Shown one piece after another: positions 19,683 through 33,751 of a stretch of DNA of 33,751 bases. The notes beneath the pieces are model-generated. The model ran no database searches and was not told where the DNA came from. It worked only from the letters and a program-made list of their open reading frames with translations. The stretch's first letter is position 1, and each line of letters starts with the position of its first letter. The stretch comes from Bacteroidaceae bacterium (GTDB taxonomy: Bacteria > Bacteroidota > Bacteroidia > Bacteroidales > Bacteroidaceae): contig JAGAQH010000008.1 of the NCBI GenBank assembly GCA_017622815.1, forward strand, positions 1 through 33,751. The letters are read 5' to 3'. The translations under genes and the position numbers were made by a program.

Positions 19683-19760
19683 GGTTCGGTAGCTCAGTTG
19701 GATTAGAGCAGCAGCCTTCTAAGCTGCGGGTCAAGGGTTCGAGCCCCTTCCGAATCACCA
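19683..19760 (+). tRNA. tRNA-Arg (anticodon TCT)
   Basis: The cloverleaf is complete. The acceptor stem is GGTTCGG with CCGAATC (one G-U pair), and the D arm is GCTC...GAGC. The anticodon stem GCAGC/GCTGC holds the loop CTTCTAA, giving anticodon TCT (reads AGA). The T arm is AGGG-TTCGAGC-CCCT. The discriminator is A and CCA is encoded (19758-19760). It has its own promoter and terminator. Confidence 0.95.
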
Positions 19761-19812: not shown

Positions 19813-19971
19813 TCCTCGGCATTAAAGAGGCAATATCCGAAATATGGTGGCAAGTCATGAAAGAGTATACAAAAATCAGGCAGGGTGGACAAAAATCATG
19901 TTCTCGGTTTATGGCACCTGGCAACCAAGAATATCCGCTGACTCGCTATAACTGCACTTATGTCCAGTAAA

Positions 19972-20005
19972 CAAAAAAGAGAGGGTTCATTGCTGAACAC
20001 TCTCT
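19972..20005 (-). terminator. Minus-strand terminator, relative of the tRNA-Arg terminator
   Basis: AGAGAG and GTTCA (19978-19989) pair with TGAAC and CTCTCT (19994-20005) around TTGC, each arm interrupted by one base. On the minus strand the T run is the A run at 19972-19977. The stem shares the GTTCAGCAATG-like core of the tRNA-Arg terminator in the opposite orientation, as expected for a tRNA terminator of the same host family. It sits just past the tRNA 3' fragment at 20015-20036. Confidence 0.8.
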
Positions 20006-20014
20006 GTCTTTTTT

Positions 20015-20036
20015 GAGCCTCTTGTCGGAATTGAAC
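20015..20036 (-). other. 3' end of a second tRNA gene; likely attachment-site scar
   Basis: Read on the minus strand, these 22 bases are a tRNA 3' end: T-loop TTCAATT, T-stem CCGAC, acceptor strand AAGAGGC and discriminator T. They are followed by the tRNA-style terminator at 19972-20005. The 5' part of the tRNA is absent: upstream bases (ATAATCG) no longer form a T-stem and no D or anticodon arm is present. Acceptor bases recall Bacteroidota tRNA-Thr, but identity is uncertain. Site-specific integration into a tRNA leaves exactly such a fragment next to the native terminator, which would place the inserted element to the right. CAAGAGG at 20051-20057 can pair with the fragment's CCTCTTG. Confidence 0.65.
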
Positions 20037-20068
20037 GATTATTTTATATTCAAGAGGTTATATGAATA

Positions 20069-20099: not shown

Positions 20100-20205
20100 A
20101 GCAGAATTCGCACCTTCGATACGTATCAGTATTACAAGGCGAATAATTAGTTAATAATTCTGCATACTTCTACGCTTAAAAGTACGGCAAGTCGAAAATG
20201 TTTGT

Positions 20206-20226
20206 TTGTTTGTTTGCCAAATTAGT
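20206..20226 (+). repeat. 21-base direct repeat, copy 1
   Basis: This sequence (TTGTTTGTTTGCC then AAATTAGT) recurs without mismatch at 24735-24755. It ends 12 bases before a plus-strand -33 element. The second copy ends 11 bases before one. Confidence 0.85.
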
Positions 20227-20307: not shown

Positions 20308-20339
20308 CAAAGATACAAAAAATACAGCAAACAAACAAA
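20308..20339 (-). promoter_or_regulatory. Leftward promoter in the control region
   Basis: On the minus strand, TTTG (20339-20336) lies 20 bases from TATCTTTG (20315-20308), a full consensus match. It reads away from the replication genes, toward the tRNA fragment, and overlaps head-on with the rightward promoter at 20239-20269. Confidence 0.6.
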
Positions 20340-20445
20340 CATTTCTTTTCCTTATATATGCCTCCAGTCAAGAATATGTAATGTTCTGAACTATCCACCT
20401 GTTTTTATAAATGACATACAAGTTTAACAATTAAATTTCTAGACA

Positions 20446-20688
20446 ATGGAAGAAGATTTAATTATTAGTAAAGCAGAATGGGTTCGAGACATAAAGATTG
20501 GAGAATCAAAGACATGTATTGTCAAGGCTCATAACGAACTGGAATCTTTTGCAACCACTGTAGGTAGGTATAACCGTGGATACGGCAGAGAGAGAGGTAT
20601 ATACTTAACCTATTCTACTAATTGGTTTGAATATTCATTCACTATAACAGCACATGACTTGAATGAAAAGGACAAGATACGCAAATAG
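20446..20688 (+). CDS. Small protein of unknown function, first gene of the element
   Basis: I do not recognise this 80-residue protein. It is soluble, mixed in charge, begins MEEDLIISKAEWVRDIK and contains an aromatic and Arg/Gly-rich middle (GRYNRGYGRERG). It starts after an A/T-rich leader and its last 26 bases overlap the next gene, so the two are probably translated together. Base composition is like the element and unlike the host genes to the left. By position it may be a control or accessory protein. Confidence 0.6.
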   Translation: MEEDLIISKAEWVRDIKIGESKTCIVKAHNELESFATTVGRYNRGYGRERGIYLTYSTNWFEYSFTITAHDLNEKDKIRK

Positions 20689-20896
20689 GTTGTCGGGATT
20701 GTCACCATCTCAACTTCGTAAGGAGATTGATTTGAATGATAGTATCATGACTCTAAATGATGCCGCTCCATTCATAGGAAAGTCTGTTTCCGCTGTTAGA
20801 AAGATGTGTCAAAGGAACCAGATTCCTGCACATAGGGTAAACTACAGATGGATGTTCCTAAAAAGTGAAATTTTAATTTGGCTCAAAGAACAATAG
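20663..20896 (+). CDS. Helix-turn-helix protein, excisionase/MerR-like
   Basis: The C-terminal half of this 77-residue protein, TLNDAAPFIGKSVSAVRKM through IPAHRVNYRWMFLKSEI to WL, is a winged helix-turn-helix of the kind found in excisionases and small element regulators. An N-terminal extension of about 28 residues precedes it; an internal ATG at 20747 is an alternative start. It overlaps the preceding gene by 26 bases. Candidate roles are regulation of the repeats in the control region, excision, or replication initiation; none can be chosen from sequence. Confidence 0.7.
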   Translation: MKRTRYANRLSGLSPSQLRKEIDLNDSIMTLNDAAPFIGKSVSAVRKMCQRNQIPAHRVNYRWMFLKSEILIWLKEQ

Positions 20897-20917
20897 CATC
20901 TAAAATAACTCTCTAAA

Positions 20918-20973
20918 TGCAAAGTCCTCCAGGCCCAGTCTGAGAAGATAGTGTCTGGAGGCATTATTTTGCA
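20918..20973 (+). promoter_or_regulatory. Large hairpin upstream of the primase operon
   Basis: CCTCCAG (20926-20932) pairs with CTGGAGG (20955-20961). TGCAAA (20918-20923) and TTTGCA (20968-20973) can extend the stem across a bulge. It lies between the HTH gene and the next start (20999). It may terminate or attenuate transcription before the primase genes; the trailing ATTATTTT is only a weak T run. Confidence 0.5.
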
Positions 20974-20998
20974 CCTTATTTATTATATCATAACATTT

Positions 20999-21205
20999 AT
21001 GGTCACACGGGAACTAGTACTTCAGCCTAAAATCGTTACTTGGATGATGGAAATGGTTGTTGAACATTCACTTCCTATGGAAATTCATGTTCAGGAAAGC
21101 ATTAACGATTTAAAAAAGGTTGTGCTAAATTATGAAGCTGAGGATGAGAGTATGGCTGAATGGGTTATCTGTAAGTGTATCGATAGATTTCTTCCTACTT
21201 TATGA
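20999..21205 (+). CDS. Small protein of unknown function coupled to the primase
   Basis: I do not recognise this 68-residue protein. I start at the ATG at 20999 (MVTRELVLQPKIVTWMMEMV). A GTG at 20951 would add 16 hydrophobic residues and would lie within the hairpin. It is acidic in the middle (NYEAEDESMAEW) and helical in look. Its TGA overlaps the primase ATG in an ATGA arrangement, so translation is almost certainly coupled. The position suggests a replication accessory protein, an inference only. Confidence 0.6.
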   Translation: MVTRELVLQPKIVTWMMEMVVEHSLPMEIHVQESINDLKKVVLNYEAEDESMAEWVICKCIDRFLPTL

Positions 21206-24200
21206 TTTCACAGGATACCATAGACAGAATTCTTGATGCAGCTGACATTGTTCAGATAATAGAAGACTTTATTCCTCTTAAGAAGCGCGGAGTAAATCTT
21301 ATTGCTTGTTGTCCGTTCCATTCAGAAAAAACTCCTTCATTTACTATATTTCCTAAAACAGGTACATTTAAGTGCTTTGGCTGTGGGGAACAGGGAAATG
21401 CCGTCGGCTTTCTGATGAAGCATGAGAATATGTCCTACCCCCAGGCTCTTAAATGGGTGGCGAGGAAATACAATATCGATATTCAGGAGGAGAATCTTAC
21501 TCCAATACAGAAGCAGGAGTTTCGTGAAAAAGAAGCTATGTGGATTGCTAACGATTATCTGGCTAAAGAATATGCCAAAGTTCTTTTGCTTCCACAATAT
21601 AAATTTGCGCGTGACTATGCTTACAAAAGATGGGGAGAAAGGTTCTGCACTCAAATGGGTATCGGATTTTGTCCGAGAGATTCCAAAATTGTTGAAGACA
21701 GCTATATTACAGATGAAATTGCAGAGGCTCTTCATCTTCGTAATAAGGCTGGCTTCGATTTCTTTGGTGGCAGAATAACAATACCTATCAAAGATAGACA
21801 ACAGCATGTTATCGGTTTTACTTCTCGTGTTTTGGATGAGAGCAAGCCAAAATACATGAATTCTTCCGATTCGCTTATCTACAATAAGTCGAAATCTATC
21901 TTTGGTATTGATACAGCATGGAGAGAAGCGGCAAAGACAGAGAGGTTCTATCTTGTTGAGGGTGCTCCGGATTGTATGCGACTTCAATGTATTGGCGTAT
22001 ATAATTCCGTCGCTACTCTTGGCACTGCCTGGACGGAAGCACATTTCAATATCCTTAAACATGCAGCTTCTCATCTATGCTTTCTTCCGGACGCTGATCC
22101 TCCTAAAGAGGGGGAACAGTTTGGTCCTGGAATAAATGCTGTGATAAAGTCTGGTGAGCTTGCCATGCGGTTAGGGTTCTCCGTTTCTGTAAAACAGATT
22201 CCCGTATCTGATGTAAAGCAAGATCCCGATACTTTCTGCACGTCATTGGCTATTTTTCAAGCTATAGAAGAACATGACTTCATTCTATGGCTTGCTGATT
22301 TGCTTTTTTCTGATGAGATGATTACGGAGAACAGAAGCAAGTCAGTAAACAGGATTGCTGACCTGCTTGCCCGTATCAATGACGAGACAAAGGTTGACAT
22401 CTACATCTCTCGCCTTATTAAATATAGCCAGAAGTCTGTATGGAAGAAGTCTATAGAGAGATTTCGTCGTGAGCATCGTGAGAATGAGGCAAAAGAAAAG
22501 GCAGAAAAAGAGGAAGGTCTGCTTAAAAGATATGGATTTAATGTAGACAGGAACAAGTACTATTCTATTGGTGATAAAGGATACTACGAATGGAGCAATT
22601 TCACTATGGAGCCTTTGTTCCATATTAAGGATTCAATTTCTCCTAAGCGTATCTACATCCTTCGCAATACTTTTGGCATAGAGGAACTTGTGGAAATGAA
22701 ACAGGAGGATTTGGTTTCCATTTCCAAATTCAAGCAAAAAGTGGAGGGTCTGGGTAATTTCGTGTGGTGTGCCTCGGAGAAGGAATTAACTAAACTGAAG
22801 TCTTATCTGTATGAGAAGACTGAGACTGCAGTACAAATTACTCAGCTTGGTTGGCAGAAGGATGGTTTCTTTGCCTTCGGCAATGGCATTTATTACGATA
22901 ATGCCTTTATCAAGGTGGATGATTATGGCATTGTGCGTATAAAGGATAAGGGGAATTATTACCTTCCGGCACACTCCAAGATATATTTCAATGATTCAAA
23001 GCTCTTTCAGTTTGAGCGCAGATTTGTTCACCAGGATCTTTCTTCAATTACATTAAGTAAATTCTCTGAGCAAATCTTCAAGGTGTTCGGTAATAATGGT
23101 AAGGTTGGCTTTTGCTTCTATCTCGCTACTTTGTTCCGTGACATAGTAACGAGAGAGTCGCGCTCCTTCCCTATTCTTAATCTTTTTGGTCCAAAAGGTA
23201 GCGGTAAATCTGAGCTTGGTCATACATTGATGTCATTCTTCGTTGCTGACAATGTACCACCAAACATTCAGAACTCTACTCTGCCGGCTCTTAACGAGAC
23301 GGTGGCGGCAGTGGCCAATGCTCTTGTACATATTGATGAATTCAAGAATGACATCGATATAAACAAGAGGGAATTTCTGAAAGGCCTTTGGGATGGTACT
23401 GGTCGTACTCGTATGAATATGGATCTGGACAAGAAAAAGGAGACAACTGCCGTGGATAGCGGCATTATCCTTAGTGGCCAGGAAATGGCTACAGCGGATA
23501 TTGCTCTTTTTTCTCGTCTTATATTCCTTTCTTTCCCAAAGTCGGACTTCTCTGCTGAGGAGAAAGAGGCATATCAGATTCTTAAAAAGGTAAGAACTAC
23601 TGGCATGACACATCTAACCTTGCAGATTCTTTCATATAGAAACAAGGTCGATACATCATTCAAGGAGGTGTATAATGCTACTCTTCAGGATGTGGTAGAA
23701 AAATTGAAGGATAATCCTATTGAAGACAGAATTCTTTTAAATTGGATTGGTCCTCTTGCAGTTTTTAGATTGCTGGAACAGTATATTGATGTCTCTATTT
23801 CGTATAAGGAGATGAAAAAGATAACCATAGATGGTATCAAGAACCAAAATTCAGAATGTCGACAGAATAGCGAACTGGCTTCATTCTGGAATATGGTTCA
23901 GTATCTCGTTAGCGAAGGTGAGATTATTGATGGTGGTGACTATAAGATAGAATATGTCCGTAATTTCAAGTCTTCTATTTGTACTCAGCAGTGGTTAGAG
24001 TCGCGTCCCGTCCTTCTAATACAGAAGACTCGTGTTTTCATGCTTTATAAGAAATATGGCAAGGCTGTTGGTGATACTTTGCTTCCGGAGGGCTCACTAA
24101 AATACTATCTCGAAAATTCAAAAGCATATCTTGGTGAGAAGACGGCAAGATATGATGTCTACCATAAGGGTATCCTGCAATATGTCAAGAATGAAAAGAA

Positions 24201-24375
24201 AGTCGGTGGATCGTTAATAAAACAAACCACCACTCATAGGTCATATTGCTTTGACTATTCTAAGATAGTAGAGAGCTTCGATGTGAATTTTGAAAAAACA
24301 AAGCTTGAGAATAATGATGTAGGTTCTGACGGGGATGAAGATGATGATACGGAGAAGGAGTTTAAGTTTGACTAA
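21202..24375 (+). CDS. Primase fused to an AAA-type ATPase/helicase-like domain
   Basis: This 1057-residue replication protein begins with a DnaG-type CHC2 zinc finger (Cys37, His40, Cys58, Cys61). A TOPRIM catalytic domain follows, with Glu253 in LVEGAPD, Asp297 and Asp299 in PDAD, and DPDTF near 341. After a charged linker (about 440-475) comes an ATPase region with Walker A GPKGSGKS (663-670) and Walker B HIDE (to Glu713), reminiscent of DUF927-type or superfamily 3-like element helicases. It would prime and perhaps unwind replication of the element. Its start overlaps the previous gene by four bases, and the C-terminus is very acidic. It ends at a terminator followed by an iteron-like region. 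The helicase class is less certain than the primase call. Confidence 0.85.
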   Translation: MISQDTIDRILDAADIVQIIEDFIPLKKRGVNLIACCPFHSEKTPSFTIFPKTGTFKCFGCGEQGNAVGFLMKHENMSYPQALKWVARKYNIDIQEENLTPIQKQEFREKEAMWIANDYLAKEYAKVLLLPQYKFARDYAYKRWGERFCTQMGIGFCPRDSKIVEDSYITDEIAEALHLRNKAGFDFFGGRITIPIKDRQQHVIGFTSRVLDESKPKYMNSSDSLIYNKSKSIFGIDTAWREAAKTERFYLVEGAPDCMRLQCIGVYNSVATLGTAWTEAHFNILKHAASHLCFLPDADPPKEGEQFGPGINAVIKSGELAMRLGFSVSVKQIPVSDVKQDPDTFCTSLAIFQAIEEHDFILWLADLLFSDEMITENRSKSVNRIADLLARINDETKVDIYISRLIKYSQKSVWKKSIERFRREHRENEAKEKAEKEEGLLKRYGFNVDRNKYYSIGDKGYYEWSNFTMEPLFHIKDSISPKRIYILRNTFGIEELVEMKQEDLVSISKFKQKVEGLGNFVWCASEKELTKLKSYLYEKTETAVQITQLGWQKDGFFAFGNGIYYDNAFIKVDDYGIVRIKDKGNYYLPAHSKIYFNDSKLFQFERRFVHQDLSSITLSKFSEQIFKVFGNNGKVGFCFYLATLFRDIVTRESRSFPILNLFGPKGSGKSELGHTLMSFFVADNVPPNIQNSTLPALNETVAAVANALVHIDEFKNDIDINKREFLKGLWDGTGRTRMNMDLDKKKETTAVDSGIILSGQEMATADIALFSRLIFLSFPKSDFSAEEKEAYQILKKVRTTGMTHLTLQILSYRNKVDTSFKEVYNATLQDVVEKLKDNPIEDRILLNWIGPLAVFRLLEQYIDVSISYKEMKKITIDGIKNQNSECRQNSELASFWNMVQYLVSEGEIIDGGDYKIEYVRNFKSSICTQQWLESRPVLLIQKTRVFMLYKKYGKAVGDTLLPEGSLKYYLENSKAYLGEKTARYDVYHKGILQYVKNEKKVGGSLIKQTTTHRSYCFDYSKIVESFDVNFEKTKLENNDVGSDGDEDDDTEKEFKFD

Positions 24376-24385
24376 TTGATTAAGG

Positions 24386-24414
24386 AAAGCCAGGAAGAAA
24401 ATCTTGGCTTTTTT
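24386..24414 (+). terminator. Terminator after the primase gene
   Basis: AAAGCCA (24386-24392) pairs with TGGCTTT (24405-24411), followed by T residues to 24414. It begins ten bases after the primase stop codon. Confidence 0.8.
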
Positions 24415-24452
24415 CGTCTCTTTAATAGCAGAAATTATGGGGCGAAAATCTA

Positions 24453-24650
24453 TGTAACAGTTGTAACATTATGTAACAATAATATATTCAACATATTAGA
24501 CATATATTATAGTCTAAATTATATGTAACATTTTGTAACAAAGAATGGCAAATATCGTGTTTTGTAAATATATTCATGTTTTAAAAACAATATTTAATTT
24601 TTTATAATTTTATATGTGCTTATAAATTAGGCTATTAAGTCGACGTTACA
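24453..24650. repeat. Iteron-like TGTAACA cluster with a palindrome; candidate origin
   Basis: TGTAACA occurs at 24453, 24462, 24472, 24524 and 24534 in one orientation, with spacings of 9, 10, 52 and 10 bases, so copies in each cluster fall on the same face of the helix. A partial inverted copy (GTTACA) is at 24645-24650. Between the clusters lies a palindrome, TTAGAC...GTCTAA (24496-24517), around A/T only. Very A/T-rich DNA surrounds this. Position after the primase and the iteron-like layout fit a replication origin; this is inference. Confidence 0.55.
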
Positions 24651-24734
24651 AATGTTGCAGTTGTTTTGGCCATTATGTATCTGTACTTTTAAAAAGAAAA
24701 AACAATTTTGAATTAGACTCGTTAAAATATTTGC

Positions 24735-24755
24735 TTGTTTGTTTGCCAAATTAGT
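24735..24755 (+). repeat. 21-base direct repeat, copy 2
   Basis: Identical to 20206-20226. It ends 11 bases upstream of the -33 element of the promoter at 24767-24797, the same geometry as copy 1. Both copies lie outside genes. Confidence 0.85.
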
Positions 24756-24766
24756 TTACATTTAGC

Positions 24767-24797
24767 TTTGCTAATACATTGTTTAATAGTAACTTTG
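24767..24797 (+). promoter_or_regulatory. Promoter for the unknown 166-residue gene
   Basis: TTTG at 24767-24770, 19 bases, then TAACTTTG at 24790-24797: a full consensus match. The start codon at 24817 is about 15 bases past the expected transcription start. The upstream 21-base repeat probably binds a regulator. Confidence 0.75.
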
Positions 24798-24816
24798 CAA
24801 AGTAAATAATATAGAC

Positions 24817-25317
24817 ATGAATTGTACAATTTTCCTAACTCTTGAACCATATCTTGCTCAATGGTTGTTACACGAGTGCGACGGTGAATCTCCAATAAAA
24901 TTCAAGAAAAACTCTGCTGAATCTAAAATTCTGGAGCTTTATTTGACCACTCAGCCAAGAAAGGAATCGTATATTCCGCAGACTCGTCCAGAACCGGGAC
25001 AGATTACGGTGGTTCTTCCCCACTTCAGGTATAAGGACACTCGGAATAACAACTATTTGCCTCCTCGTGGTGTTGTAGCTCTTCAGGAATGTATCCGAAA
25101 CAGGTTTCGTGTAGAACTTTGGAAGGATCTTTATACTATAGGTAATGTCATTAAAAGGACTGATATCAGCATCACCAATTGGATGAAGTTGCATGGTATC
25201 GTTGATGACGACAGGAATTTCAATACCATAGCCAAGATTTTGCAAAGAAGCAGAGCTGCTTACTGTTCAGATGGTAGGCTTACAAATCATAAATCTTCGA
25301 AACATCGGAAAAAATAA
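24817..25317 (+). CDS. Unrecognised element protein (166 residues)
   Basis: I cannot assign this 166-residue protein. It begins MNCTIFLTLEPYLAQWLLHE. The C-terminal half is basic and helical (ECIRNRFRVELWKDL, then TDISITNWMKLHGI and TIAKILQRSRAAYC) and ends in a Lys/His-rich tail, which suggests nucleic-acid binding. It has its own good promoter and lies between the replication and head modules. A small terminase subunit or regulator is possible by position, but no diagnostic motif is visible. Confidence 0.65.
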   Translation: MNCTIFLTLEPYLAQWLLHECDGESPIKFKKNSAESKILELYLTTQPRKESYIPQTRPEPGQITVVLPHFRYKDTRNNNYLPPRGVVALQECIRNRFRVELWKDLYTIGNVIKRTDISITNWMKLHGIVDDDRNFNTIAKILQRSRAAYCSDGRLTNHKSSKHRKK

Positions 25318-25331
25318 TACCGACATAAATA

Positions 25332-25339
25332 TATCTTTG
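25332..25339 (+). promoter_or_regulatory. -7 box before the 135-residue gene
   Basis: TATCTTTG lies at 25332-25339, 20 bases before the ATG at 25360. No TTTG is found at the expected -33 position. The bases from its TTTG onward, TTTGTCCACCTA (25336-25347), recur immediately before the terminase start (30650-30661). Confidence 0.5.
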
Positions 25340-25359
25340 TCCACCTAACATTTGATTCT

Positions 25360-25767
25360 ATGAAACAGTCTCTTCCTGGTATTAAAAATATAAGTGTCTT
25401 GCCTTGCGCTGGCATCCCTCAACATGCTATGGCAAAATGCCTAAGCGACATTCCTGTTGGCTTGAATTGCAATACCTCTAATTTGGATATATATCCTGAG
25501 TCTTCTTTGGAGGTGGAAAGTAATTACACTAATGGGGATTATTATGAAAACCTCACCCTTAAATTCACTTCCACTACCCGAATTCCCAAGCAACGAAAAA
25601 TGGCTCTTGTTGTTACTGATGTCGAAGGTAAGAATTATTTGATTGGAACTAAAGAGCGTCCATTTCCAATAATTGAATACACAAGGGAGATTTCCGGTTC
25701 AAGGAATATTTATGATATCAAGGTTACTTTCTCTGGTAAGCGTGCCTTGATTCCTTGTGCTATATAA
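25360..25767 (+). CDS. Unrecognised, possibly virion-related protein (135 residues)
   Basis: The 135-residue protein looks largely beta-stranded (LTLKFTSTTRIP, KMALVVTDVEGKNYLIGT, YDIKVTFSGKRALIPC), with no signal peptide or membrane segment. It recalls small proteins encoded beside capsid genes in Bacteroidota prophages, perhaps a head-completion or adaptor protein, but this is impression rather than a match. It precedes a bidirectional hairpin and the inverted toxin-antitoxin pair, which may have split it from the head genes. Confidence 0.6.
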   Translation: MKQSLPGIKNISVLPCAGIPQHAMAKCLSDIPVGLNCNTSNLDIYPESSLEVESNYTNGDYYENLTLKFTSTTRIPKQRKMALVVTDVEGKNYLIGTKERPFPIIEYTREISGSRNIYDIKVTFSGKRALIPCAI

Positions 25768-25797
25768 AAACGGGATTTAGCGATAATGCTAAATCCC
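25766..25797 (-). terminator. Hairpin between convergent genes, mainly minus-strand
   Basis: GGGATTTAGC (25772-25781) and GCTAAATCCC (25788-25797) form a perfect ten-pair stem with a six-base loop. The A run at 25766-25770 gives a T run on the minus strand, so it best terminates the toxin-antitoxin transcript. It also lies four bases after the plus-strand stop and may serve both directions. Confidence 0.8.
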
Positions 25798-25876
25798 AAT
25801 TCGACCTTTTTAAAGTGCAATACGGAGCGACGGGGGCTTCCGCACACACTATCGATATTGCAAAGGAATAATATTG

Positions 25877-26389
25877 TTATTCGTTGGTATCACTTATTGT
25901 AAATTTGTCTATACCGTAGACTTTGCGCGTGTGAGTATCTATAAAGTCATTCTCTTTCAAATGCTTCATGACATTTTGTAAATCATGCGCATTCAGGTGT
26001 CCCATCTTCTCTGCTTTCTTGGCCTTAATCTTTGAAACTTTAAGTTCCTTGGGATCTGTACAATCTATCCAACTGTCATGGTCGAGAATCTCGGGATAAT
26101 CTATCTGTCTGATTAGATACTGTTCTGCTTGCCAGTCTGGTGCTGATGAGAAATCATTATCTGAATTTATCAGTACAGCACATACTTCTTTTTGATTGGA
26201 CTTAGAACCAGCAACGACTACGTATTTGAGCCTTGAATCATAACCATCCTTAGGAATAATACCATCTGCTCTGTCCATATCATAATATACGATGTCTCCT
26301 ACCTGAAGGTCATGCATATCTTTAACAATAGACTCATTATGCATCATCTCGCTGAGATGTGATAAAACATTGTATGTATTATTGTCCAT
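25877..26389 (-). CDS. Putative toxin partner of a Panacea antitoxin
   Basis: This 170-residue protein follows the Panacea gene with a one-base overlap (TAATG), the usual tight coupling of toxin-antitoxin pairs. Its core, VGDIVYYDMDRADGIIPKDG through SRLKYVVVAGS to VCAVLINSD, looks like an SH3-like barrel of the PemK/MazF type. This suggests an RNA-cleaving or translation-blocking toxin, but I see no definitive catalytic signature. The C-terminal third is a Lys-rich helical tail (KIKAKKAEKMGHLNAHDLQNVM). The toxin role rests mainly on its partner and position. Confidence 0.6.
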   Translation of the reverse strand: MDNNTYNVLSHLSEMMHNESIVKDMHDLQVGDIVYYDMDRADGIIPKDGYDSRLKYVVVAGSKSNQKEVCAVLINSDNDFSSAPDWQAEQYLIRQIDYPEILDHDSWIDCTDPKELKVSKIKAKKAEKMGHLNAHDLQNVMKHLKENDFIDTHTRKVYGIDKFTISDTNE

Positions 26390-26961
26390 TAAGAAAGCTC
26401 TGTTGCAATTAACTCCTTTTCACGAATGTAGGCTATCATTTTATCGGTAGCGCCACCGGCCTTAGCTATCTCAATGTTTGTAAGAGTTCCTAATTGTGGG
26501 TCTTCCAAGAAACGGGCATATGCTATATCGTATGCCTTATCATGCGATTCTGGTGATAACTCGGTCTTGGAATCTTTTTCCTTACAATAGACAAACCATT
26601 TGTCCAAATATTCACATTCCTTCTGTGACAAATAGTCCATATCTGGCTCTGCAATACCAAAAACCTTTTGGTCCGTAACTCGGATTGAGTTGCGGAATCT
26701 CATTAAATCTGGATACTGGTCTATATCCTCGTCTTCCAATTCCACTAACTTGATTACCTTGTCTGACAAGGCTGGTACAGGACCAAATTTGCGTGCTTTG
26801 AATGTGTCAGGACAGAGTACCTTTCCATAGTTTACCAGATATTCTTTTTGGGCAAAATAGATTATCTTGAAAAGCTTGATGTAATCTACGCCTTCAGGAA
26901 AATTTCGTAGTACATACAATACTACGGATTCTATTTTTTTTATCTGTTCTATAGTCTTCAT
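26389..26961 (-). CDS. Panacea (DUF4065/SocA-like) antitoxin
   Basis: The 190-residue protein carries the Panacea/SocA domain. Typical features are VDYIKLFKIIYFAQKEYLVNYG, then FKARKFGPVPALSDKV, and YLSQKECEYLDKW in the second half. Panacea domains are known as antitoxins that pair with many unrelated toxins. The gene comes first in a two-gene minus-strand unit, starts below a promoter carrying a perfect 19-base palindrome, and is likely autoregulated. In this element it may provide maintenance or defence against other phages. Confidence 0.85.
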   Translation of the reverse strand: MKTIEQIKKIESVVLYVLRNFPEGVDYIKLFKIIYFAQKEYLVNYGKVLCPDTFKARKFGPVPALSDKVIKLVELEDEDIDQYPDLMRFRNSIRVTDQKVFGIAEPDMDYLSQKECEYLDKWFVYCKEKDSKTELSPESHDKAYDIAYARFLEDPQLGTLTNIEIAKAGGATDKMIAYIREKELIATELS

Positions 26962-26988
26962 TTTGACGAAATATCATTTATTTGTCTG

Positions 26989-27012
26989 CAAAGATACTAA
27001 ATTATTTAGTAT
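26989..27012 (-). promoter_or_regulatory. Promoter and operator of the toxin-antitoxin pair
   Basis: The minus-strand -7 box TATCTTTG occupies 26996-26989. Overlapping it is a perfect odd palindrome, ATACTAAAT-T-ATTTAGTAT (26994-27012). A repressor bound there would block the promoter, the usual autoregulation of antitoxin operons. No clear -33 TTTG is present. Confidence 0.7.
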
Positions 27013-27193
27013 TTTTGAGTTTTACTTGTTAATTTATACAGATTATAGGATTATTACCAGGTATTTTTAGATTCTTTGTCAAGCTTATCTGCAAATAGAT
27101 ATAGTTTCGGGGTTCGAATAACAGGATTCATTTCGGGCCATGCGTTTTTATTTTTGGCTATTTTCTGTCTTTTCTTTCTCCTAATTCGCTGTA

Positions 27194-27201
27194 TATCTTT
27201 G
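27194..27201 (+). promoter_or_regulatory. -7 box of the head-gene promoter
   Basis: TATCTTTG (27194-27201) lies 19 bases after a TTTC (27171-27174) that could serve as the -33. The first head gene starts at 27225. The promoter probably drives protease, capsid and accessory genes. Confidence 0.6.
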
Positions 27202-27224
27202 CACTATAAATAATTCTTATTTGT

Positions 27225-28202
27225 ATGGCAAAGAAAAATTACAATCTTCATCTTAAAGGTTACGTCGGTGGTTGGGATTTTGATGCTGACTATGTTGACT
27301 ACGTTCTTGGCAAGAATCAGGATGGCGAGGTGAATGTGCTTATCGATTCACTTGGCGGTTCTCTCGCTAAGGCTCTTTCTATCGTTGCAGCTTTCCGTAA
27401 TCATGGAAATGTAAATGTGCATTTCGTTGGTATGAATGCGTCAGCTGCAACTATCGCTTCTCTGGGTGCAAAACATGTCAGCATGGATTCTTCTGCTATG
27501 TATCTGGTTCATAAGTGTTCCATGGAGTTCTTCCAATGGGCTTCTGCCAATAGTGACAAGCTTCGCTCTATCATCAAGGAAGCAGAGCAGATGAAGGAGG
27601 ATCTTGACAAGATGGATGCTAACGTGGCTGAGATGTATGCCGTCAAGTGCAAGCGTGAACCTTCTCAACTCCTGGCACTTATGAAGAAAGGTGGATGGCT
27701 TACCGCTAAAGAGGCTCTTGACTGGGGCTTTGTGGATGAGATTACTGACTTTGAGGACGATATGGCGCCTGTTATCACTGATGATATGGCGGCTGATATG
27801 TCCACAGCCGGTATTCCCATACCTGAAGGTTTTTCTCGCGTGAATCCTTCTGCTTTCAACCGCTTTGTCGTTGCGCTGACTAATTTCTTTAAGTCTAATC
27901 AAAATAACAATGAAAAGATGAACACTGAAAATTCTACTAAAGCTAATGCTGAGGAGAAGGTGGCTTCTCCTGCTTCTGAGACCATTTCTGCTGATGCTCA
28001 TGCCAAGGCTATCGCTGACAAGGATGCAGAGATTAAGGCTTTGAGGGATGAGATTGAGGCTCTGAAGAAGGCTCCTGGCGATTCTACATCTCATATCGTG
28101 GATGAGAATAAGAAAGGTACCGCTTCTCTCGACCCTAACTCTCCTGAGGCTTTCTTCGAGACAAAGGCTCGTGCACAGGAACTGTATGACATGCTTCCCT
28201 AA
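27225..28202 (+). CDS. ClpP-like prohead protease with C-terminal scaffold-like domain
   Basis: This 325-residue protein has a ClpP/crotonase-fold head-maturation protease (about 1-185). The nucleophile is Ser73 in GMNASAATIASLGA and the likely base is His96 in MYLVHKCS. The position matching the ClpP catalytic Asp, two residues before WLTAKEA, is Gly, so the third residue is unclear. From about 205 it becomes a charged helical coiled coil (DAHAKAIADKDAEIKALRDE) resembling a scaffold that is cleaved away. An in-frame ATG at 27918 (MNTENSTKAN) could give a free scaffold, as in several phages. The major capsid gene follows after 24 bases. Confidence 0.82.
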   Translation: MAKKNYNLHLKGYVGGWDFDADYVDYVLGKNQDGEVNVLIDSLGGSLAKALSIVAAFRNHGNVNVHFVGMNASAATIASLGAKHVSMDSSAMYLVHKCSMEFFQWASANSDKLRSIIKEAEQMKEDLDKMDANVAEMYAVKCKREPSQLLALMKKGGWLTAKEALDWGFVDEITDFEDDMAPVITDDMAADMSTAGIPIPEGFSRVNPSAFNRFVVALTNFFKSNQNNNEKMNTENSTKANAEEKVASPASETISADAHAKAIADKDAEIKALRDEIEALKKAPGDSTSHIVDENKKGTASLDPNSPEAFFETKARAQELYDMLP

Positions 28203-28226
28203 TCGTTAAACTCTAATCGTTATATT

Positions 28227-29186
28227 ATGGCTGGTAAACTTACTTTTACTCTTCAGGAATTTCAGGAGGCGGCCACCAAATGGCGTTCTGACCTTCTGAT
28301 GCTTCCTATCATTGGCATTCAGGAGACTCTTAAGTACATGACTGCTCGTCCTGGCATTCGCTACAAGGAGAATGTGGGTGCTCTCTCTGGCGATGCGCAG
28401 TTCGGTCCCTATAAGCCTTCGCGTTTCACAGATTTCAATCTCAATGTGGACTACCGTACTCTTGAGACATTCATGGGTTCTGTGGTGGCCAAGTTCGAAC
28501 CTAACTCTGCCGTGTCTACTCTGCTTGGTCAGGTTGGCGCTACCAAGGGTGATGGACAGATGAAGGCTCCTACTGCCTTGCATGTCCTCGCTCTTATCGC
28601 TCGTGGCCTGTCGGAACACCTCAATGAGGCTATTTGGGCTGGAAAGCGTAATGCAGCAGGTGATACTACAATGGACCTCTTTGATGGTTTTGATACCATT
28701 ACCACAAAGGAGGTGACTTCGGGTGCTATCGCTGCAGAAGAGGGGAATTACATGAAACTGGACGAGGAGATTACTTCTGCAAATGCCGTGGATGCTGCAA
28801 AAGAAATTCTCTTCTCTCTGGATCCTCGTCTGCGTTCTCAGGATTTGTACATGTTCTGCACTCAGGATTTTGCAGACAAGTACAATGAGGGCTATCTGCT
28901 GTCGCATGGCGGTATCAACTACAATACTCAATATTCACAGACTACTGTGGAGGGTTCAAATGGCAGGTTGCATATCATTCCTATGTACAACAAGATTGGT
29001 TCTAAGTTCATCCACATCTGTCCTAAGTCCAATATGCTTATTGGCTATGACCAGATGGGTGACGTGGAGTCTGTTATGGTAAAGGAGTACGAACCTTTCA
29101 TCCTTTCGTACATCGCTACCATGTTCTTTGGTTGTCAGTTCGAGTCTATCGACAAGCGTAGATTCAAGGTTGTTGAACTTGTCTAA
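28227..29186 (+). CDS. Major capsid protein (HK97-like, inferred)
   Basis: This 319-residue protein follows the protease-scaffold gene and has the size and composition of a phage major capsid protein. It has no signal peptide and no cleavable-looking delta domain, which fits a separate scaffold. It is rich in mixed alpha/beta sequence, with a C-terminal stretch FIHICPKSNMLIGYDQ resembling the axial-domain region of HK97-fold proteins of Bacteroidota phages. The assignment combines position, length and overall likeness; no single motif proves it. Confidence 0.75.
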   Translation: MAGKLTFTLQEFQEAATKWRSDLLMLPIIGIQETLKYMTARPGIRYKENVGALSGDAQFGPYKPSRFTDFNLNVDYRTLETFMGSVVAKFEPNSAVSTLLGQVGATKGDGQMKAPTALHVLALIARGLSEHLNEAIWAGKRNAAGDTTMDLFDGFDTITTKEVTSGAIAAEEGNYMKLDEEITSANAVDAAKEILFSLDPRLRSQDLYMFCTQDFADKYNEGYLLSHGGINYNTQYSQTTVEGSNGRLHIIPMYNKIGSKFIHICPKSNMLIGYDQMGDVESVMVKEYEPFILSYIATMFFGCQFESIDKRRFKVVELV

Positions 29187-29198
29187 AGTGTATTGGTT

Positions 29199-29858
29199 AT
29201 GGCAAATTGTATTAACATACAGCGTTCGCTGGATTGGTGCATGGGTACACCGGAATTGCCGGGTATCAAGCGTAGGGTTTACTATATTGCAAAGAATCAG
29301 ATAGTAAAATGGCCGGCATTCCTCCGTGATGACAATGGACGGGTCTCCTCCTCTACTCTCTCTGGTTCCTTCACGTTGGTTGCTGATGCCAAGTGGCATT
29401 ATATAGTCATCCTTGCCGATAAGTCACAGCTGACTTCGGAGGCTCAGGGTGAAGTGCCTTCGCAGACACAGCTGAACAAGGCAACTTTGGTTCATCCTGG
29501 TGTAGGTCCTTCTGCTTCGGCTGCTTCTGCCTACCTTAACAATTCGGACAATGTCTTCGTAGTCGAGGACATGAAGGGCAATTTCCGTATTGTCGGTTCT
29601 GAGCGATGGATGACTAAAACAACCGTGGCTCAGGATAATGGTCAGGGTGCTACAGGCACAACATCTACCACAATTTCAGTGGAGGCTACGGATGAGATTC
29701 CTTCTCCTTTCTACGTTGGCACACTCAATACTGAGGAGGGTGTTATTGATTGCAGTAATGGCAATGTTTCTGGTGGCAACACGAATAATGGTGGCAACAC
29801 GAATAATGGTGGTACATCCGGTGATGATGATGACTTCGATGGCAACCTTGGCGATTAA
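29199..29858 (+). CDS. Virion-accessory-like protein after the capsid gene
   Basis: The 219-residue protein starts at the ATG at 29199 (MANCINIQRSLDWC); a TTG two codons earlier is not needed. It is mostly beta-rich (RVYYIAKNQIVKWP, DAKWHYIVILADKSQ, SQDNGQGA-like AQDNGQGATGTTS, ISVEATDE). It ends in a flexible tail of GGNTNN repeats and an acidic terminus. It lies 12 bases after the capsid gene and so is probably a head-accessory, neck or tail-tube-like protein. Similar proteins occur beside capsid genes in Bacteroidota prophages as far as I recall. No tail genes are nearby. Confidence 0.6.
   Translation: MANCINIQRSLDWCMGTPELPGIKRRVYYIAKNQIVKWPAFLRDDNGRVSSSTLSGSFTLVADAKWHYIVILADKSQLTSEAQGEVPSQTQLNKATLVHPGVGPSASAASAYLNNSDNVFVVEDMKGNFRIVGSERWMTKTTVAQDNGQGATGTTSTTISVEATDEIPSPFYVGTLNTEEGVIDCSNGNVSGGNTNNGGNTNNGGTSGDDDDFDGNLGD
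29772..29813 (+). repeat. 18-base tandem repeat in the accessory protein
   Basis: The unit GGTGGCAACACGAATAAT is present twice without mismatch (29772-29789, 29790-29807), followed by a partial third. It encodes GGNTNN repeats in the disordered C-terminal tail; copy number can vary in frame. Confidence 0.85.
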
Positions 29859-29903
29859 CTTCTGTGAGTTTTAATAAATGAATCTTATTCATGTTTGAAC
29901 TGG

Positions 29904-29937
29904 ATACCCAGGGACCGTGATGGTTCTTGGGTATTTG
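29904..29937 (+). terminator. Strong hairpin between accessory and phosphoribosyltransferase genes
   Basis: A 13-pair stem, ATACCCAGGGACC (29904-29916) with GGTTCTTGGGTAT (29922-29934), includes two G-U pairs and a five-base loop. Only a short T run follows, and the next ATG (29943) is eight bases away. It may partly terminate the capsid transcript or hide the start region of the next gene. A smaller hairpin, ATGAAT-CTT-.-ATTCAT (29878-29892), precedes it. Confidence 0.65.
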
Positions 29938-29942
29938 TGTAA

Positions 29943-30608
29943 ATGCTTCACATTATGCTTGATGATGTTCTGAATGATATTCCTATGCCTCAGTCTGTTT
30001 CAGATGTGACACAGGATATAGATATTGGTGCTCTTCCAAATTGGAACGAGGATGACAATCTGCCAAAGAAGGATATCTTTGCCGTAGAACAGCGAAAGGG
30101 CTGGGATAAGTCTGTAGAGGCACGTTGTGACTTTACTCCTAAGCTTCGTCTTACTCGTCGTGCTTCTACAAACTTTATCTCGCTTTGGCAGAAGTCCATC
30201 TTCGGAAGAACACTGACTGAGATAAAGGCTGATGATTCAATGGTGCAGTTCTTCATTGATTCTCTTGTGCCGATTATCAATGAATGTGTCGGATATCATG
30301 TCTCATCTGGCAATTGGGCTGTCGTTACTACTCCTATGCGTAGACATAGAGAGAGAAATTTTGCGTCGCGCATTGCCGAAGGTATTAGCAGCTCTCTTGG
30401 GATTCCTTTCTACTTTGACTGCGCACATTGTCAGAGCAAGCAGCGTGTCGGGGCTGTGTTCCTGCCTAATAACATTCCGGCAGAATCGAATGTGATTGTT
30501 TTTGATGATTTCGTTACTACAGGATCTACATTGCTGGCAATGAAGAACCTTCTTCACGAGCATCAAAAGAATACTGTTTTTATCACTGGAATAAATAACA
30601 AACTATAG
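29943..30608 (+). CDS. ComF-like phosphoribosyltransferase
   Basis: This 221-residue protein has the type I PRTase signature VIVFDDFVTTGST (184-196), with both acidic residues and the TTGST PRPP-binding loop. The ComF-like lead-in TPMRRHRERNFASRIAEG (about 130-147) is also present. Residues 1-75 form a polar extension I do not recognise. The ComF zinc fingers are absent apart from a lone Cys-Ala-His-Cys (160-163). Known PRTases make or salvage nucleotides; the function in a phage head module is unknown. It lies between capsid and terminase genes on the same strand and so seems part of the element. PRTase fold is confident, substrate is not. Confidence 0.82.
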   Translation: MLHIMLDDVLNDIPMPQSVSDVTQDIDIGALPNWNEDDNLPKKDIFAVEQRKGWDKSVEARCDFTPKLRLTRRASTNFISLWQKSIFGRTLTEIKADDSMVQFFIDSLVPIINECVGYHVSSGNWAVVTTPMRRHRERNFASRIAEGISSSLGIPFYFDCAHCQSKQRVGAVFLPNNIPAESNVIVFDDFVTTGSTLLAMKNLLHEHQKNTVFITGINNKL

Positions 30609-30660
30609 TCCAAATTATTTTCAAAAAATCATCCCGACTTTAATTGTATTTTGTCCACCT

Positions 30661-32316
30661 ATGAGCAAGGAAGTTTATTTCAACAAACCTCAGCGTTTGA
30701 CTCAGCTGATTGGTGCTAATATTTCTGTGATTGTTGCTGGTCGTCGTACTGGTAAGACTGATTCTATTGCGGCTCCTTTCGTTCTTCGCAACATGCAGCG
30801 CATGCCTGGTTCTACAGGTGGCATCGTGGTGCCTACCTTCAAGCATGGACTTACTAATACTCTGCCAGGACTCCTTGCGGCATGGAAGCGGTGGGGTTAC
30901 ATCCGTGGCATTCATTATGTCATCGGGCGTAAACCTCCGAAGACTTTTGCCAAGCCTATCATTGAGCCGGCGGAGTATGAGCATGTCATAACTTTTTACA
31001 ATGGGTCTTGTGCTGTGATTATCTCTCAGGACCGACCCGGTTCTTCTAACTCGCTGACGCTTTCATGGCTTCTTGTGGATGAAGCGAAGTTCATCGACTA
31101 CAACAAGCTGAAGGATGAGACGCTTCCTGCCAATGGCGGTATTAAGTCCTACTTTGGCAAGCACTCTTGCAATCACTCTATCATGATCCTTAGTGACATG
31201 CCTCAGACACAAAAGGGGTCTTGGTTCCTGCATTATAAGGATAAGATGGACAGCGAGGTGATTGCTGCTATAGAGGGGCTTGTGTATGACATCTGGAAGT
31301 TGAAGGAGAAAATAAAATCATTCAGGGAGACTGGTGAATCTGTTCCTAAGCATCTGCTTTACACGTTAAAGCATAAAGACAGACAATTAAATCAGTTACG
31401 TTCCATTGCTACTTACTATAAAGAGTATTCTTCTATTGAGAATTTGCAGTTGCTTGGAGAGAACTATATCCGTCAGATGAAGCGTGACCTGACTCCGCTG
31501 ACCTTTCAGACGTCGATACTATGTCAACGTATAGGTATAGCAAAGGATGGTTTCTATTCTTCCATGAGGGAGGGGCATAAGTATGATGCTTCAGACATGG
31601 AGTATCTGGACAATGTTGCTCAGTCATTCTACGACAATGATGATTCTCATATTTCTGCCATAGGGGCACAGATGGATTGTCGTGCAGACAAGGATACTGA
31701 CCCGAATGCGCCTATTTGCATTGGGATGGACTACAATGCAAATATCAATTGGATTGTGGCTGGACAGCCTTCAGGACGTAGACTGAATGTAATAAAATCT
31801 TTCTATGTCAAATTTGAAAGAAAGATACCTGCTCTTGTGGAGGAGTTCTGTTCTTACTATGCGTTCCATAAGAACAAGACGGTGATATTTTATTACGATA
31901 CTACAGCACTCGGTTCAAACTATGCGGTGAATGAACAGGACTTCCGTTGGGTCATAATCCATGAGTTTGAACGTCGTGGTTGGGAGGTGGTTGATGTGTA
32001 TCTTGGCAATCCCATGCGACATGATGAGAAGTACCTGCTCATCAACCAGGGATTTGCAGGGAAACAGAGGTTGATGCCGTTCTTCAACAGGCAGAATAAC
32101 GATGACCTTATCCTTGCTATACAGGCTGCAGGTGTTACTCGTGGACGTAATGGGTTCCGTAAGGATAAGGGTGGAGAGAAGCTGGCAGAATCGGAGGAGG
32201 ATTTGCTTGAACATCGTACTGATGGGACGGATGCTTTTGATACGCTTTATATAGGGTGTGAGAAGTTTCCGCAAGCAAACTACTCTTCTCGTTATTCTGT
32301 TTCTGGAGTTTCGTAG
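30661..32316 (+). CDS. Phage terminase large subunit
   Basis: The 551-residue protein has both parts of a DNA-packaging motor. The ATPase has Walker A AGRRTGKT (26-33) and Walker B LLVDEA, with Asp140 and Glu141. The RNase H-like nuclease has acidic residues at Asp357 (IGMDYNA), Asp413 (YYDTTA) and Asp524/Asp527 (DGTDAFD). All key residues seem intact, so it is likely functional. It is the last virus-like gene; the portal gene that normally follows is not there. The start ATG directly follows TTTGTCCACCT, shared with the leader at 25336. Confidence 0.88.
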   Translation: MSKEVYFNKPQRLTQLIGANISVIVAGRRTGKTDSIAAPFVLRNMQRMPGSTGGIVVPTFKHGLTNTLPGLLAAWKRWGYIRGIHYVIGRKPPKTFAKPIIEPAEYEHVITFYNGSCAVIISQDRPGSSNSLTLSWLLVDEAKFIDYNKLKDETLPANGGIKSYFGKHSCNHSIMILSDMPQTQKGSWFLHYKDKMDSEVIAAIEGLVYDIWKLKEKIKSFRETGESVPKHLLYTLKHKDRQLNQLRSIATYYKEYSSIENLQLLGENYIRQMKRDLTPLTFQTSILCQRIGIAKDGFYSSMREGHKYDASDMEYLDNVAQSFYDNDDSHISAIGAQMDCRADKDTDPNAPICIGMDYNANINWIVAGQPSGRRLNVIKSFYVKFERKIPALVEEFCSYYAFHKNKTVIFYYDTTALGSNYAVNEQDFRWVIIHEFERRGWEVVDVYLGNPMRHDEKYLLINQGFAGKQRLMPFFNRQNNDDLILAIQAAGVTRGRNGFRKDKGGEKLAESEEDLLEHRTDGTDAFDTLYIGCEKFPQANYSSRYSVSGVS

Positions 32317-32430
32317 CATTTGCGAGAACAAAGGTAGCTGTATAGTATAATAATAATACAAGGTGATTAATATCATTTAATGCTAATTCAAACTCAATTG
32401 TACCATAGTTGGGGAAATGTTGAACAGAAA
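32317..32430. other. Right junction of the virus-like region
   Basis: This short gap lies between the terminase stop and the promoter of the TPR gene. I see no copy of the tRNA 3' fragment at 20015-20036, no integrase and no clear direct repeat with the left end. A minus-strand TACCTTTG (32336-32329) is present without a good -33. Confidence 0.4.
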
Positions 32431-32431
32431 T

Positions 32432-32462
32432 TTTATTTTCTCCCTTAAAAACTTTACCTTTG
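32432..32462 (+). promoter_or_regulatory. Promoter of the TPR lipoprotein gene
   Basis: TTTA at 32432-32435 lies 19 bases from TACCTTTG (32455-32462), a near-complete Bacteroidota consensus. The start codon at 32503 is about 35 bases past the expected transcription start. Confidence 0.7.
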
Positions 32463-32502
32463 TATAGTGATTAAACATACATTATATATTATTAGGTGAA
32501 TT

Positions 32503-33751
32503 ATGGTAGTTTTTCGCAAACAATACTTATTCTTGCCAATATTGGCATTCATATTATTCTCATGCACTGACCAGCATGCAGAATCCATTATTACTAAGGC
32601 AGAACAGCTATTAAACACTAATCCGGATTCTGCCCTTGCTGTACTTGATGATATCCAGGAAAACAAGGAAGATTGGCCTCGTTCGCAACAGATGCGCTAT
32701 GAACTTGTTTATGCACAGGCACAGAACAAGGCATATGTTAATTTTACTACCGATAGCATTGTTCTCAGCTTGGTTGACTACTATGAGCGCCATGGCAATG
32801 CCAATGAACAGATGATGGCAAACTACATGGCAGGGTGTGCATACCGCGATTTAGAGGATGCGCTTTCGGCACTGAAATACCTGAATCTGGCGGTAGATGC
32901 CGTTGACGAAAGCGATGAGGATTGCGATTTGAACACATTGATGCGTGTCTACAGTCAGATGGGAGGATTGTATCAGCGCGTTGCAGCGTTTGAGAACGAA
33001 AGAATTGCAGATATGCATGCAGAACGATTGGCATGGCAGATTGGAGATACAATATCGGCACTTCGTTTAATGTGGTTACAGGCATGTTGTTTATTTGATT
33101 CTAGAAATCAATCAGAGGCAATCATGATTTTGGATAGTATAGCGCAATTTACAGAAAAGAATGGAATTCAAGAGGATCCTGATTTGATATATCCAATTAA
33201 AACTGATTACTATCTTGAACGTAAAGACATTAAATGCGCGGAAATTCTATTGCGTGAATACGAATATAAGACAGGGATTCTAACAGAATCTCTAGATACC
33301 TTGAATTATGACATGGCTCACTTTTATCTTAAGGGCAAGTATTACAACATTGCTCAAAAGCCAGACTCAGCTATACAGATGTTCAATAAGTTGTCACATT
33401 TGATAGAGCTGCGTCCACTTTATACTTCTCAGCGCCACGGACTGAAAGAGGTCTCCTATCAAGGACTGACCAAGGCCTATTCGCTCAAACATCAGCCTGA
33501 TTCTGTTATTAAATATGCTAATTTATATTGTCAATGGAATGATTCCAGCACTCGGGCTAAATCATCTGAGTATCTTTTGAGGTATCAATCACTTTACAAC
33601 TATGCAAAAGTTCAAGAGCAGGCCCTGAAAGCAGAGCAGAAGGCATCACGTCTTCGTGTAATAATAATTTTGTTGGTGGTTTTCGCCACTACTATTGTCA
33701 TTGTTGCGTGGTTAATTTACCAGAAGCGACTAAAAAAAGAACGACAAAAGC
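32503..33751 (+). CDS. TPR lipoprotein with C-terminal membrane helix (partial)
   Basis: The frame runs open from the ATG at 32503 to the window end (416 codons, no stop). It opens with a lipoprotein signal and lipobox ILFSC (Cys21). TPR-like helical repeats (about 25-375) follow, including the pairs AEQLLNTNPDSALAVLDDI and IAQKPDSAIQMFNKL, and then a membrane helix (about 386-407) and a basic segment, LKKERQK. Bacteroidota often encode such TPR-plus-membrane proteins as sensor-like regulators, sometimes with a DNA-binding or kinase domain beyond this point. The part that would tell is outside the window. Composition is intermediate between the host genes and the element. Confidence 0.8.
   Translation, partial: MVVFRKQYLFLPILAFILFSCTDQHAESIITKAEQLLNTNPDSALAVLDDIQENKEDWPRSQQMRYELVYAQAQNKAYVNFTTDSIVLSLVDYYERHGNANEQMMANYMAGCAYRDLEDALSALKYLNLAVDAVDESDEDCDLNTLMRVYSQMGGLYQRVAAFENERIADMHAERLAWQIGDTISALRLMWLQACCLFDSRNQSEAIMILDSIAQFTEKNGIQEDPDLIYPIKTDYYLERKDIKCAEILLREYEYKTGILTESLDTLNYDMAHFYLKGKYYNIAQKPDSAIQMFNKLSHLIELRPLYTSQRHGLKEVSYQGLTKAYSLKHQPDSVIKYANLYCQWNDSSTRAKSSEYLLRYQSLYNYAKVQEQALKAEQKASRLRVIIILLVVFATTIVIVAWLIYQKRLKKERQK

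Follow-up and report, generated by a model that had tools for sequence, protein, structure and literature searches.

What is a set of head and packaging genes with no portal or tail genes beside it: a mobile element of its own, or one side of a phage? This question is raised by contig JAGAQH010000008.1 from a Bacteroidaceae bacterium (assembly GCA_017622815.1). An earlier note, made from the sequence alone, described a primase, a ClpP-like protease, a capsid-like protein, an accessory protein, a phosphoribosyltransferase (PRTase), and an intact terminase large subunit (TerL) in this contig, and proposed either a satellite that builds its own capsids or a prophage missing one side. We analyzed the whole contig (C40; 33,751 bp; hereafter, the window). 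It belongs to an assembly (G000) of 42 contigs that is 88% complete. We refer to other genomes, contigs, and loci by our own G, C, and L numbers. These gene calls hold, although the PRTase is weak (below the Pfam cut-off). Comparisons of sequence and gene order indicate that the element is very probably the left arm of a Bacteroidota temperate tailed prophage, which is integrated at tRNA-Thr(TGT) and is cut by the end of the contig, and not a satellite.

The window ends just 1.4 kb past the stop codon of TerL (position 32,316), within a repeated TPR/lipoprotein-like gene. Its final 141 bases are identical to the final 141 bases of another contig from the same assembly (C35). From these matches, we take the contig end to be an assembly break in a repeated gene. 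As the earlier note had said of the ~12-kb segment, no portal, tail-tape, or integrase gene is recognizable, and this holds for the window as a whole, but the element itself need not lack them: because the contig stops 1.4 kb after TerL, their absence proves nothing.

Among viral contigs, we found 70 relatives of the major capsid protein (MCP) and 358 relatives of TerL, of which we kept 80. Some of these contigs encode a candidate portal protein of 433–461 amino acids, and 7 of 14 of these proteins matched the PHROG portal family phrog_11226 (best E = 5e-8). The identification of the portal rests on these matches, on the neighboring DUF6712 gene, and on position. Using a profile of this protein, we found a portal on the same contig in 27 of the 50 viral contigs searched that bear the MCP/TerL module. 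TerL could be scored in 26 of the 27, and the portal was always on the same strand as TerL; it follows TerL in 24 contigs and precedes it in two. The exceptions to the order are L030 and L032 (MCP 76% identical to the window's); L031 looks similar, with TerL outside the locus. In the 24 contigs where the portal follows, it lies 1.4–32.1 kb past TerL. This gap is 1.4–8.7 kb in the six contigs whose MCP is less than 60% identical to the window's, and 7.2–32.1 kb (median 23.5 kb) in the other eighteen. Seventeen of the eighteen have an MCP at 68.6–86.5% identity and one has no MCP in the locus; two of them (L034 and L041) may be one phage. As for the 23 portal-less contigs, 22 could be scored, and none of these reaches more than 24.2 kb past TerL. 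Because the largest gap is 32.1 kb, all 22 may be fragments.

Some relatives are full-length. In G185, the 3' end of a tRNA-Thr(TGT) beside the integrase is repeated (25/25 bp) just outside the end with orf80, the HTH gene, and the primase. The unit bounded by these att repeats is 62,543 bp and runs primase, MCP, TerL, cargo, portal, tail, integrase, with the protease and the tape-measure and amidase genes inside. Its MCP and TerL are 86% and 87% identical to the window's, and its TerL-portal gap is 28.5 kb. At the right end of five long contigs, we saw a long tape-measure-like gene and a tail protein, together with an oppositely oriented tyrosine integrase (the integrase was found in 5/5 right ends scanned, and a PhageMin_Tail tape measure and an amidase were each found in the one scanned). 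In G166, G185, and G167, a tRNA comes next, within ~330 bp, and the tRNAs beside the integrase differ in kind (Thr, Pro, and Lys). Uncultured Bacteroidales prophages from IMG/VR that bear the MCP/TerL module, such as UViG_2876622487_000001 (58.5 kb, MCP 84%) and UViG_3300028888_002997 (63.8 kb, MCP 86%), have the same gene order as the window through TerL. To the right they have the portal, tail, an amidase-like gene, and an integrase, whereas the window shows the left arm only; their cargo is unlike the window's. Overall, the order in the relatives is attL, early regulators, primase, protease, capsid, TerL, variable cargo, portal, connector (DUF6712), tail, amidase, tape measure, integrase, and tRNA. 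A terminase after the capsid gene, which the earlier note had called unusual for a tailed phage, is the usual order in this lineage. The comparison of syntenic copies that the earlier note had recommended uncovered just what it said would refute a satellite: full-length prophages with the portal, tail, and integrase to the right and in the same orientation.

The closest copies of the element are in the same genus. We searched 139 genomes at E = 0.001, weak matches included, and found matches to MCP in 17, TerL in 28, the portal in 18, and the tape measure in 29. In the nearest copy (G040; MCP 99%, TerL 94%), the module is on contig C96 and the portal is on C133. An exact 141-bp overlap of their ends places the portal ~14.8 kb past TerL, on the same strand. 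TerL and the portal are also on one contig and one strand in G041 (22.7 kb apart) and in G059 (~27 kb apart; TerL is a partial match, amino acids 141–541).

On the left, GC content is ~0.5 before position 20,000 and 0.33–0.48 beyond it. Positions 19,970–20,036, which include a degenerate copy of the tRNA-Thr 3' end (Table 1), are 85.7% identical over 70 bp to the tRNA-Thr 3' end of G026 together with the sequence that follows it; this site is unoccupied in G026. Given the att match and the tRNA-Thr-type flank, we therefore place the left boundary of the element at an attL in tRNA-Thr. The left ends in G016 and G091 have 24-bp copies of this attL, and G091 also has, on another contig, tRNA-Thr followed by an integrase-like reading frame. 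There is no second att copy in the G000 assembly. A full-length, 100% identical tRNA-Thr(TGT) is present in 7 of 9 same-genus assemblies tested, G040 has a 33-nt fragment, and G000 has none, as would be expected if the assembly had missed the attR end of the prophage. We also considered tRNA-Arg(TCT) at 19,683 as the integration site, but its 26-bp 3' end occurs just once in G000 at up to 2 mismatches, so it is a neighbor only; the tRNA-Thr remnant, which is the better att, lies ~250 bp further in.

Several observations weigh against a prophage arm at tRNA-Thr. The main one is that G000, G026, and G016 have the left arm, and the portal and the tape measure are absent from these assemblies. For G000, the portal and tape-measure profiles gave zero matches in the whole assembly (a search for the integrase was not made there). 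In G026 (MCP 97%), ~25.8 kb of sequence beyond TerL contains host-like genes and no portal, and at its left end we saw no tRNA-Thr att but another site. The window's own attL has 3 mismatches out of 25. Also, the candidate portal had no Pfam match in the two proteins scanned, and its profile had no match in PDB. The ~25.8-kb run in G026 is still inside the range of TerL-portal gaps observed. Because the G026 copy is not at tRNA-Thr, integration in this family is probably not limited to one site. In that genome (at L161 8175–8827), a short YolD-like frame lies next to a gene resembling Y-family polymerases, and the copy starts ~240 bp past this frame. We considered whether the block after TerL in G026 is plain chromosome and rejected this: 7.1 kb of the block gave just a 44-bp match in G000 and kilobase pieces in a few genomes. 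This search scored 2 of 34 candidates in G000, so the absence is not strict, and the block is not proven to be phage cargo.

The missing genes could also mean that the right arm was truly lost, through a deletion or a recombination event within the cargo slot, and perhaps in G026 and G016 as well. The window would then be a truncated remnant, but still a prophage arm. The absence of the tail half from three assemblies, of which G000 is 88% complete, fits this idea and counts against an intact prophage. Also, the family does decay, because 3' fragments of TerL occur in chromosomes of the genus and because G075 has a copy without capsid genes. And most of the window's last gene is 94% identical to a chromosomal paralog in G026, so the right flank could be chromosome. 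However, the reading frames of the left arm are uninterrupted and most of these genes have nearly full-length matches in G026 or G040, the contig end is a break in a repeat, and the tRNA-Thr that would be expected at attR is also missing from the assembly. We consider a remnant to be unlikely. The proposal of a prophage missing one side stands, and the best explanation for the missing side is that the contig breaks off and that the attR/tRNA-Thr end dropped out of the assembly.

The 3'-terminal TerL fragments include L263 7826–8173 (G056) and L266 10218–10484 (G075), and there are further short matches in G037, G047, G086, G092, G101, and G137. We read the context of two fragments and found cargo-type genes nearby (a UmuC that is 93% identical to the copy in L006 and an ATPase that shares 99% identity with the gene that follows TerL in L075). 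Because the fragments begin at different places, one common cut site is not apparent. In the capsid-less copy (L265 6322–12529; contig C11 of G075), the primase and orf166 are directly followed by TerL; the protease and capsid genes are gone, so this copy of the module has undergone a deletion. The window's last gene (32,503–33,751) looks mosaic: 32,544–33,749 matches at 83% the G026 copy that is 1.8 kb past TerL, while 32,724–33,751 is 94% identical to another G026 paralog (contig C32) and 79% identical to a paralog in its own genome, yet the last 141 bp of the latter are identical. Gene conversion seems likely.

The other proposal was a capsid-encoding satellite, that is, a 12-kb island that makes its own heads, packages its own DNA, and takes the portal and tail from a helper phage. 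This could account for the three assemblies (G000, G026, and G016) that have a capsid, protease, and TerL but lack a portal and tape measure, and for the defense-like genes in the small cargo slot described below. It does not account for the portal that shares a contig with the module in over half of the relatives searched, for the portal 14.8 kb on in the nearest copy, or for the att-bounded unit of G185, which contains the portal, tail, and integrase; and the 22 portal-less contigs that could be scored all stop short of the largest gap. We consider a satellite to be very improbable. A domesticated gene transfer agent (GTA), a kind of element whose particles carry random pieces of host DNA and whose head and tail genes would here be at different loci, seems barely credible: host-like genes do separate the head and portal blocks in several genomes and the capsid model matches a GTA capsid at E = 3e-6, but a GTA would have no genes for autonomous mobility, while this family has att repeats, integrases beside different tRNAs, and its own primase, and its MCP is spread patchily across the genus (17/139 genomes).

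If the window does hold a prophage's left arm, then its cargo would continue past the contig end and be followed by the portal, tail, and integrase, which were not assembled or not binned. The phage would form a lysogen at tRNA-Thr, excise with its right-end integrase, and replicate with its own primase. Its HK97-type head would be matured by the ClpP-like protease, and TerL would fill the head through the phage's own portal, encoded downstream, so that a helper would not be required. The cargo would be packaged along with the rest of the genome.

The large cargo slot between TerL and the portal is the part worth keeping, and it is more interesting than the original finding. It holds 7–32 kb in 18 relatives. 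The cargo that we read includes restriction, BREX, Zorya-like, UmuC, and host-like genes; in G026, G041, and G059, the gaps look host-like rather than defensive. We scanned 105 of the 159 cargo proteins listed. Among the top 25 of 87 Pfam families were UvrD-type helicases, domains of type I and type III restriction systems, Eco57I and N6 methylases, HaeIII and NgoPII endonucleases, a C5 methylase, Porph_ging, and glycosyl hydrolase domains. BrxC is among the PADLOC matches; the GajB and RT-helicase models were hit by UvrD-type helicases, whose membership in those systems is not proven. In the cargo of G141, single proteins match PADLOC models for a methylase, DarT, and ZorB, and there is a UmuC as well. 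Enrichment of defense genes in the cargo is our impression, with no background rate measured. As a sign of cargo insertion, we looked for a repeat of the TerL 3' end at the far end of the cargo, but there was no extra copy in the 29 loci searched. On balance, we lean towards viewing the gap as a giant cargo bay, with nearly half of the 62.5-kb att-bounded prophage being a swappable block of defense or host-like genes inside the head module, and with pieces of the block left in chromosomes along with the TerL 3' end.

A second, smaller slot lies between the gene for the 135-amino-acid protein and the protease. It contains a Panacea pair in the window, Abi_2 in G040, and SLFN_AlbA_2 in G010. An ArdA-like gene (one cluster in 38 loci, of which one member was tested) is upstream of orf166 in the loci that we read.

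Table 1. Features of the element in the window and at its edges. In the counts of loci per cluster of open reading frames (ORFs), some loci overlap.
Feature	Position	Strand	Evidence
Chromosomal flank, terminator resembling the one after tRNA-Thr(TGT) in the unoccupied site	19968..20013	-	Sequence match to G026
attL, degenerate copy of the 25-bp tRNA-Thr(TGT) 3' end; putative left boundary of the prophage	20014..20038	-	3 mismatches/25; 0/100 shuffles match
32-nt operator-like repeat, copy 1, ahead of early genes	20195..20226	+	Repeat comparison
Inverted arm of the 32-nt operator-like element	20327..20350	-	Repeat comparison
Early protein of 80 aa, also encoded by relatives	20446..20688	+	36–41% to L161, L165, L166
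HTH_17 protein, excisionase/regulator-like	20663..20896	+	Pfam 5e-9
Small early protein, 84 aa, GTG start	20951..21205	+	Matches in L161, L165, L166
DnaG-like primase, 1057 aa, long C-terminal region (phrog_22657)	21202..24375	+	Pfam Zn_ribbon_DnaG 2e-33; phrog_6444 1e-75
32-nt operator-like repeat, copy 2, ahead of later genes	24724..24755	+	94% to copy 1
Conserved phage protein, 166 aa (orf166)	24817..25317	+	Cluster of 58 ORFs in 58 loci
Conserved phage protein, 135 aa	25360..25767	+	Cluster of 64 ORFs in 64 loci
Weak PemK/MazF-like protein, small cargo slot	25877..26389	-	Pfam 0.0065, below curated cut-off; no PADLOC match
SocA/Panacea-domain antitoxin-like protein, small cargo slot	26389..26961	-	Pfam 1e-11; no PADLOC match
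Head maturation protease, ClpP fold, long C-terminal tail	27225..28202	+	phrog_94 3e-32; Pfam CLP_protease 1e-15
Major capsid protein (MCP), HK97 fold, 319 aa	28227..29186	+	Structure model and Foldseek
Conserved protein after capsid gene (head accessory by position only)	29193..29858	+	Cluster of 92 ORFs in 86 loci
Phosphoribosyltransferase-like (PRTase), weak	29943..30608	+	Pfam Pribosyltran 3e-4, below cut-off; cluster in 85 loci
Terminase large subunit (TerL), intact	30661..32316	+	phrog_2 3e-8; 34.6% over 97% to annotated TerL of Microcystis phage Mea-Yong924-1
TerL-portal cargo slot, probable beginning	32317..33751	.	Gene from 32503, TPR/lipoprotein-like, cut by contig end; homolog 80% (aa) 1.8 kb past TerL in G026

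The MCP has no match in Pfam or PHROG, so its identification comes from an AlphaFold model built from 25 relatives (pLDDT 78.6). Against PDB, Foldseek matched this model to HK97-fold shells, of which the best was the capsid of phage phiRSA1 (E = 3e-7, TM ~0.5). The PDB matches also include P4, capsid-forming island, and GTA capsids, with encapsulins lower down, and the model matches phage major capsid proteins in BFVD.

The iteron-like repeats of the earlier note turned out to be a single 32-nt element, with two direct copies and one inverted arm, that precedes the early and the later gene blocks. It fits operator sites better than an iteron array and may be a shared regulator-binding site. 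L161, L165, L166, and L221 also have its core, TTTGTTTGTTTG, at their left ends.

In many of these phages, genes for proteins of ~245, ~173, ~91, and ~210 amino acids lie between the PRTase and TerL (L193–L194 and L191, compared with L168 and L118). In G141 and G091, however, members of this set belong to the portal block, and such a placement may explain why TerL directly follows the PRTase in the window.

These results remove a candidate portal-less satellite; a capsid island at the end of a contig says nothing about missing tail genes. Because the large defense and cargo slot is at a fixed place, TerL and the portal can be used as anchors to harvest defense systems. The relation of capsid capacity to cargo length also becomes testable. 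If the block is packaged, these phages would carry entire BREX, Zorya-like, and restriction systems from one gut Bacteroidota host to another, and if the other genes take up ~34 kb, as in G185, then one type of capsid would have to hold genomes of ~41 to 66 kb.

Judging from the searches of sequence databases, this prophage lineage is widespread, and the deposited phages that we searched include no close match to it. A scan of GTDB contigs identified 189 relatives of the capsid protein; the 80 that were listed are mainly from gut or rumen Bacteroidales, and mostly from metagenome-assembled genomes. Cultured isolates with contigs encoding this capsid family are Prevotella sp. MA2016 and P6B1 and Xylanibacter ruminicola D31d (MCP 75–76%). 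The MCP had 1 weak match among 50,697 phage records and none among 72,556 plasmids. A search of titles and abstracts found no description of this phage family or of the TerL-portal slot, which does not prove that there is none in print.

The slot resembles the P2/P4 defense hotspots in that variable defense genes lie between two conserved phage genes. The P2/P4 hotspots are reported to be ~1–5 kb (Rousset et al. 2022, PMC9122126), as compared to 7–32 kb in the 18 relatives, whose slot adds clusters of host-like genes.

Two deposited phages have related terminases, and neither gave a tblastn match to the MCP of the window. TerL of Microcystis phage Mea-Yong924-1 (MZ447863) is 34.6% identical over 97% of the query, and as in the window, this phage has the protease, the annotated capsid gene, and TerL in that order; its integrase is at the right end. 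TerL of Bacteroides phage BT-TP2 (PQ571279) is 26.1% identical over 95% of the query, and a head protease precedes TerL. Its annotated portal is 4.3 kb past TerL with just short genes between, unlike the 7–32 kb slot of the window's relatives.

Capsid-forming phage-inducible chromosomal islands encode their own HK97-fold capsid protein, protease, and terminase. The window likewise has its own head and packaging genes, and an island capsid (9gyi) is among the structures that match its MCP model. By definition, these satellites have no tail genes in the mobile unit, whereas the att-bounded relative in G185 keeps the portal, tail, tape-measure, amidase, and integrase genes in one unit. The combination found in the window, an HK97-fold capsid, a maturation protease, and TerL, is also that of a tailed prophage.

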